Below, piece by piece: positions 47,347 to 48,654 of a stretch of 64,000 nucleotides of DNA. The notes beneath the pieces were generated by a model. That model ran no database searches and had not been told where the DNA came from. It saw nothing but the letters and a program-made list of their open reading frames with translations. This DNA is from Fusibacter paucivorans (GTDB lineage: Bacteria; Bacillota; Clostridia; Peptostreptococcales; Acidaminobacteraceae). The translations under genes and the position numbers were made by a program. The DNA lies in NCBI RefSeq assembly GCF_018390735.1, contig NZ_JAHBCL010000004.1, positions 1 to 64,000 on the forward strand, written 5' to 3'. The stretch's first letter is position 1; each line of letters starts with the position of its first letter.

Positions 47347-47700
47347 TTATAAATTCGATTTTGCAAGTGCAACGAGTTTTGCAAAGTCTTCTGGATTATG
47401 AATTGCCATTTCAGAAAGCACTTTTCTGTTGATATCAACATCTGCTTTTTTAAGGCCATTCATGAATTTAGAATAACTTAAACCGTTGATTCTCGATGCA
47501 GCGTTAATACGTGCAATCCAAAGTTTTCTAAAATCTCTTTTTCTTCTTTTTCTGCCAATGTATGATGATCGTAATGCTCTCATAACTGCCGGATTAGCAG
47601 CCTTGAAAACCAAGCTCTTTTGACCGTAGAAGCCTTTCGCTAACTTTAATACTTTTTTATGCTTTTTCTTAGCGTTCATCGCTCTTTTTACTCTAGCCAT
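47347..47700 (-). CDS. rplT: ribosomal protein L20
   Basis: 117 residues, highly basic with the long N-terminal extension of L20 ([25 protein letters not shown]) and the conserved [14 protein letters not shown]. Binds 23S rRNA early in 50S assembly and, in Bacillota, feeds back on its own leader. AGGAGG site before ATG. 27 bases downstream of rpmI; last gene of infC-rpmI-rplT. Confidence 0.98.
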
Positions 47701-47727: not shown

Positions 47728-47925
47728 CTATAAATAAGGCAATAACGTTTTGACACGTTTCATATCTGATTCACTGACCAACGTCGCCTGTCTCAAACCT
47801 CTTCTTCTCTTAGAAGATTTCTTTGTTAAGATATGGCTTGTAAATGCTTTGCTTCTTTTTAACTTTCCGCTGCCTGTCTTTTTTACTCTTTTGGCAGCGC
47901 CGCGATGTGTTTTCATTTTAGGCAT
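47728..47925 (-). CDS. rpmI: ribosomal protein L35
   Basis: 65 residues, very basic, with the family start [13 protein letters not shown] and the [20 protein letters not shown] core. Complete. Lies between infC and rplT as in most Bacteria; AAGGAGG site before the ATG, 31 bases after infC. Confidence 0.98.
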
Positions 47926-47956: not shown

Positions 47957-48463
47957 TTATTTTTTAGGTGCATAAGTTGCAACTAAGCTTCGGCCTTCCA
48001 TTTTTGCCGTACCTTCCATAACACCGTATTCCTCGATTTCTGCGGAGAAACGTTTTAAGACTTCGTATCCAAGCTGAGTGTATCCCATTTCACGACCTCG
48101 AAATCTAAGAGATACCTTCACTTTATCGCCTTTTTCAAGGAACTTGGCAGCACTTTTCGCTTTTGTCTCCAAATCGTGCTTTTCGATATTAAGGCCTAAA
48201 CGGACTTCTTTCACAGTAGCACTCTTTTGTTTTTTGCGCGCTTCCTTATCCCGCTTTTGCTGTTCATAACGATGTTTTCCAAAGTCCATGATCTTACAAA
48301 CAGGCGGTTTAGCATTAGGTGCTATCTTAACGAGGTCGAGCTTTCGCTCTAACGCCAGCATGTAGGCGTCTTTTGCAGTCATGATGCCCAACTGTTCACC
48401 ATCGTCGCCGATAACTCTTACTTCACGGTCACGAATTTCTTCATTCATTTCAGCTGTTTTGAT
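47957..48463 (-). CDS. infC: translation initiation factor IF-3, probably with an AUC start
   Basis: 168 residues. N domain starts with EMNEEIRDREVRVIGDDGEQLGIM and is joined by the basic linker helix (HRYEQQKRDKEARKKQK) to the C domain ending EGRSLVATYAPKK. IF-3 binds the 30S subunit and rejects non-AUG starts. No ATG lies where one is needed: an in-frame GTG at 48472 overlaps the AGGGGG ribosome binding site, and the first ATG (48448) would delete residues normally present and stands too far from the site. ATC at 48463 is eight bases after AGGGGG. infC is known in other bacteria to use AUU or AUC for autoregulation, so I place the start there. Confidence 0.88.
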   Translation of the reverse strand: MKTAEMNEEIRDREVRVIGDDGEQLGIMTAKDAYMLALERKLDLVKIAPNAKPPVCKIMDFGKHRYEQQKRDKEARKKQKSATVKEVRLGLNIEKHDLETKAKSAAKFLEKGDKVKVSLRFRGREMGYTQLGYEVLKRFSAEIEEYGVMEGTAKMEGRSLVATYAPKK

Positions 48464-48479
48464 AAGATACACCCCCTAG

Positions 48480-48616
48480 GTTAATATAAAAATAAAACGG
48501 CAGATAGAATATCTGCCGTTAGTACACAATGTTTTTCAAAAAAACGTCATGAGCACTATGAACCATATGAACAGAAGTTATATGGTGAGAAGCAGACTTC
48601 TACTTAATATTTATGA
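48480..48616 (-). promoter_or_regulatory. infC leader with attenuator (L20-leader type)
   Basis: About 135 transcribed bases before infC. On the minus strand: a stem AGAAG/CTTCT and ACCATAT/ATATGGT pair (48595-48555), then an intrinsic terminator ACGGCAGAT-ATTCT-ATCTGCCGT followed by TTTATTTTTAT (48519-48487), then the ribosome binding site. Position and structure fit the Bacillota infC-rpmI-rplT leader, where L20 binding promotes premature termination. Confidence 0.78.
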
Positions 48617-48624
48617 CCTTGAAC

Positions 48625-48654
48625 ATAATATCACGTATGTCATGTCCTTGTCAA
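48625..48654 (-). promoter_or_regulatory. infC operon promoter
   Basis: On the minus strand TTGACA (48654-48649), 18-base spacer, TATTAT (48630-48625), starting right after the thrS stop codon. Confidence 0.83.

Follow-up and report, generated by a model that had tools for sequence, protein, structure and literature searches.

The infC gene of Fusibacter paucivorans has an apparent AUC start codon, and an AUH codon is conserved at this place in the infC loci examined across the phylum

The infC gene of Fusibacter paucivorans, which encodes IF3, is almost certainly translated from an AUC codon at position 48463, judging by the Shine-Dalgarno (SD) sequence in front of this codon and by what relatives carry at the same place. 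The gene lies on the minus strand of a stretch of 64,000 nucleotides (positions 1 to 64,000 of contig NZ_JAHBCL010000004.1), called the window below. An AUC start had been proposed in the initial annotation. The case for it is stronger now, because relatives share an ATT, ATC or ATA codon (ATH) at SD-compatible spacing. Such a codon is kept in 179/179 loci examined from the same phylum, which together with the SD strongly supports AUC as the start. The features of the start region are as follows.

47957..48463, minus strand: infC (IF3) coding sequence, TIGR00168, an open frame of 168 aa if begun at ATC
48470..48477, minus strand: SD sequence AGGGGGTG, the strongest anti-SD pairing upstream of infC by stacking sum
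48461..48463, minus strand: proposed ATC (AUC) start codon at an aligned SD spacing of 8, where 179/179 loci have ATH
48470..48472, minus strand: GTG within the SD, rejected as start; an in-frame TAA comes after it in loci L096, L106 and L108
48446..48448, minus strand: first in-frame ATG, rejected as start; it has no SD and is rare at that place in relatives

The product of the gene scored 212.1 bits against the TIGR00168 equivalog, whose cut-off is 60, and thus belongs to bacterial IF3. Its closest match with a named source was the IF3 of Firmicutes bacterium UBA6806, an unclassified Bacillota, at 82% identity. On the minus strand the start region reads CCTAGGGGGTGTATCTTATCAAAACAGCTGAAATGAATGAAGAAATTCGT. 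An in-frame TAG at 48478-48476 closes the frame just 5' of the candidate starts; therefore, infC must start at or downstream of 48475. The candidates left in frame are GTG at 48472, ATC at 48463 and ATG at 48448. The initial annotation gave the SD as AGGGGG. This core is present at 48477-48472 and is followed by an 8 nt spacer, TGTATCTT, and then by ATC at 48463-48461, but the site is longer: AGGGGGTG pairs with the anti-SD over 8 nt, with a stacking sum of about -16.6 in approximate energies. The usual anti-SD sequence was assumed, because a search for the 16S rRNA gene in the assembly detected none. Counted from the last core G, the aligned spacing is 8 nt for ATC and 5 nt for CTT at 48466. 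Thus, ATC is not the only correctly spaced codon, as had been claimed, but it is the only near-cognate one; CTT has a permissible spacing, but is not near-cognate, and was rejected. At SD-compatible spacing the frame holds an ATH codon and no canonical start. The aligned SD spacings of other genes on the same strand are 8 for rpmI, 9 for rplT, 7 for thrS and 6 for pta. Over 41 gene starts of the window, which were themselves picked by SD strength, the spacing ranges from 3 to 10 and is mostly 4-8.

We compared the start region among 179 infC loci, 39 from the family (the window's own locus included) and 140 from the phylum besides it. The family sample comprised 41 genomes, 40 of them with a match and one without; 39 loci were examined, since in one genome (G003) the locus was split over two contigs. 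The phylum sample comprised 149 genomes including that of the window; 141 had a match and 8 had no infC match, leaving 140 other loci to examine. Loci of the same genus are not independent, and the genomes with a match represent 123 genera in the phylum sample and 20 in the family sample. Each locus was anchored on its strongest SD (stacking sum of -9 or lower), and starts were sought at a spacing of 4-11. The start column was the ATH nearest to spacing 8.5, but the presence of ATH at spacing 4-11 was not presupposed. L213 was placed by hand on its second-best SD, since the strongest pairing fell inside the gene. The fragmentary L250 was counted among the 179 and was too short for the tree described below.

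It turned out that an in-frame ATH lies at spacing 4-11 from the strongest SD in 39/39 family and 139/140 phylum loci. In the one remaining locus, L213, the second-best SD is followed by ATC at spacing 9, with no in-frame ATG, GTG or TTG in between. In the other 178 loci, in-frame ATG, GTG or TTG at spacing 4-11 from the strongest SD was found in none. In a few loci such a codon is permissibly spaced from some weaker pairing, as is the TTG of L124 and L125 (-11.6). Over all 179 loci the start codon is ATT in 110, ATC in 54 and ATA in 15. The check for conservation of ATC in relatives suggested in the initial annotation thus came out in its favour, with ATH at the start place throughout and ATC itself in those 54; its call for verification in Clostridia was answered, at the level of sequence, by an ATH start in every locus examined from the phylum.

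Two controls were made. ATH is placed in the start column more often than chance would give: among 178 loci, it occupies the start column in 178, the preceding codon in 30 and the following codon in 3. For rpmI, which was anchored on the protein and not on the SD, 213 of 260 loci gave a match, and the first aligned codon is ATG, GTG or TTG in 210/213 and ATH in 0. In 98/179 loci the frame from the upstream stop to ATH has no ATG, GTG or TTG at all; the first such codon downstream is at least 10 codons into the gene in 69 of these and 4-9 codons in for the other 29. An in-frame stop stands three or fewer codons before ATH in 63/179 loci and is often the TGA of GGAGGTGA itself. Within the family, one genus (L255, L256 and L257) has an ATA start at an SD spacing of only 5, the shortest seen, against 6-10 in the other family loci.

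Translation from the GTG at 48472, three codons 5' of ATC, would make the ATC merely codon Ile4. This GTG is the sole ATG, GTG or TTG of the open frame ahead of ATC, and an open in-frame GTG occupies that place in 21/39 family loci, including that of the window and the 13 loci nearest to it (L082-L094). Since the GTG is in frame both here and in these relatives, the window's own genome is not sufficient to dismiss it. However, the GTG begins inside the SD, as the initial annotation correctly saw, so the SD and the start codon could not act together. The SD of near relatives reads GGAGGTG or GGGGGTG, and retention of the GTG is explicable as part of the consensus GGAGGTG. Moreover, three family loci (L096, L106 and L108) keep the GTG and then have an in-frame TAA; therefore, this GTG is more readily accounted for as part of the SD than as a start codon. 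The place of the GTG reads as an in-frame TGA in 56/178 loci. Initiation at this GTG is thus very improbable. Slightly less probable still is translation from the ATG at 48448, which would give an IF3 of 163 residues. This is the first ATG in frame, and the objection that its use would remove conserved residues is weak: it costs the start residue and K-T-A-E, and the protein still begins at the conserved NEEIR motif. What tells against this ATG is that it has no SD (the best pairing is about -4.5 over three bases) and that ATG stands at this place in 2/39 family loci (the window's own genome and a genus mate) and in 0/140 phylum loci; the residue that most relatives carry there is Ile, Val or Leu. 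Not every solved IF3 chain has its N-terminus at the ATC position. In PDB 5lmn (Thermus IF3), residue 6 aligns with window residue 9, which puts residue 1 on the ATC codon by ungapped extrapolation; residue 1 of 1tif would fall one residue earlier (also ungapped), and the N-terminus of 8jsg is longer.

The third base of the start codon was traced on a quickly built tree of 178 IF3 proteins. It changes among T, C and A at least 30 times, 5 of them inside the family, and gains and losses of C number at least 21. G was found at the third base of the start column in 0/179 loci. The mean G+C is somewhat higher in ATC loci (0.48) than in ATT loci (0.43). As an informal count over a rough tree, the third-base pattern fits selection for any AUH with AUG excluded. 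Together with the absence of AUG, GUG and UUG from the SD-spaced place in 179/179 main loci, it suggests that throughout the phylum the infC start is selected as any AUH, with U, C and A interchangeable, and never AUG. We consider it likely that a start allowing IF3 autoregulation is near-obligatory in Bacillota and was seemingly lost in divergent second copies of infC.

In one family (f26), three members with large genomes have, besides the main infC, a second and divergent infC-like gene: L251 in G106, L261 in G062 and L262 in G145. These second copies were excluded from the 179 loci. An ATG at SD spacing seems to be the start of L251 and, as read by eye, of L262, and that of L261 may be GTG or ATA. 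In the same genomes the main copies of infC (L164, L165 and L152) retain ATH.

A further 80 loci, separate from the 179, were collected: 38 were taken by title as Rhodobacteraceae and kin, the only loci outside the phylum (among L037-L081), and 42 were taken as Bacillota, one of which (L009) is titled only "uncultured bacterium". In the Rhodobacteraceae-type loci infC apparently starts at ATA, with the motif ATAGCCCGC or one near it. The script called ATA in 28 of them, ATT in 1 and ATC in 1 and left 8 uncalled; by eye, all eight have ATA in frame. Among the 42 loci taken as Bacillota it called ATT in 31, ATC in 5 and ATA in 4. The two left uncalled (L031 and L035) have no ATH near the strongest pairing and, by eye, have ATC after a G-rich SD.

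The infC gene stands at the head of an operon with rpmI and rplT, and a putative regulatory leader precedes it.

47728..47925, minus strand: rpmI (L35), TIGR00001, ATG start, SD spacing 8; control gene of the infC operon
47347..47700, minus strand: rplT (L20), TIGR01032, SD spacing 9; likely ligand of the leader RNA
48483..48611, minus strand: L20-leader-like attenuator RNA (RF00558), 49.6 bits (gathering score 58.7), E 3.7e-9
48496..48520, minus strand: intrinsic terminator, an 11-pair hairpin stem followed by a T-rich tail, TTATTTTTAT; 1 found against 0.1 expected in shuffles
48625..48654, minus strand: sigma-70-like promoter TTGACA-18-TATTAT, 11/12 consensus matches, with TG ahead of the second hexamer

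The promoter-like site and the terminator hairpin are placed between thrS and infC; the region has 4 promoter-like sites against 1.2 in shuffles. The leader lies 5' of infC and ends in the intrinsic terminator, as expected for RF00558. It is called L20-leader-like here because its score is below 58.7: at the gathering threshold Rfam gave no match in the region, and the leader appeared only under the E-value threshold. Other weak Rfam matches (DapZ, sraA, STnc490 and so on) are below their own gathering thresholds and were taken as chance. The leader folds at -35.6 kcal/mol against a shuffle mean of -18.2 (z -5.8). The 44 nt around the SD and AUC fold weakly alone (-2.3 kcal/mol), although within a longer sequence some of the SD region is paired in a short stem of the minimum-energy structure. 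When 20 family loci were scanned for RF00558, 19 had a match upstream of infC at E of 9e-5 or lower, 2 of them over the gathering score; L109 had none there. The match is below gathering in the window and in 17/19 of the matching family loci scanned. The RF00558 model may miss this lineage.

By analogy with known infC genes, we think it very likely that IF3 exerts feedback through the start codon of its own gene. The strong SD AGGGGGTG would direct initiation to AUC 48463, which fMet-tRNA would read as a mismatched start, and free IF3 would destabilise such complexes. IF3 in excess would then repress its own translation, and when IF3 is scarce, more infC would be translated. A second loop, the L20-leader-like attenuator upstream, probably sets the amount of infC-rpmI-rplT transcript. 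The operon would thus probably be under two loops, transcription attenuation by L20 and control by IF3 of its own translation. An explanation that shares the AUC start is that this codon only keeps IF3 low, with no IF3 feedback in this lineage. We consider it unlikely. If low output were all that counted, weakening the SD would suffice, but this SD is a strong one, and a third base that is T, C or A, and G in 0/179 loci, is what would be expected if IF3 discrimination is what is selected.

For the window, infC should be annotated from ATC, giving 168 aa. In many genomes of the phylum, gene callers limited to ATG, GTG and TTG would put the infC start in the wrong place. Judging by the 179 loci counted, a rare infC start seems to be the rule, with a free choice among AUU, AUC and AUA. 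The mechanism is textbook, and the gain is modest.

Reportedly, the AUU start of E. coli infC and IF3 autoregulation were described by Butler et al. in 1986/1987 and by Sacerdot et al. in 1996 (both cited in PMC5472188), and an arXiv paper cited in PMC9845219 is said to deal with genes preferring non-AUG starts. The infC gene of Myxococcus is reported to start at AUC, as the initial annotation also states; we looked for this Myxococcus start in the literature and did not find it. A phylum-wide count of infC starts was not found among the literature matches listed, which were open-licence papers, and we claim no priority. Published work describes infC as starting at ATT in E. coli and at ATC in Streptomyces, with IF3 thereby autoregulating (PMC5472188), and gives an AUU start in both E. 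coli and B. subtilis (PMC1805508). B. subtilis infC has an ATT start and a leader that interacts with L20 (PMC6097659). Other papers report AUA as the start in S. aureus by Ribo-Ret, that is, retapamulin profiling (PMC13009471), and ATT in Xanthomonas by peptides (PMC5559785).

The infC gene of the window shares with E. coli infC a non-AUG, AUH start and the same proposed feedback; it differs in having AUC instead of AUU, in belonging to another phylum and in a leader of the Bacillota L20 type. The B. subtilis infC-rpmI-rplT operon has the same gene order, a similar leader and an AUH start, whereas its start is ATT and not ATC, and the leader here is below the Rfam gathering score. Streptomyces has the same ATC start in another phylum. 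S. aureus has the same kind of start in the same gene with a strong SD; there the start was mapped experimentally and is AUA, in contrast to AUC here. Autorepression by IF3 with rare infC start codons is established elsewhere, and the present case is a solid but ordinary example of them.
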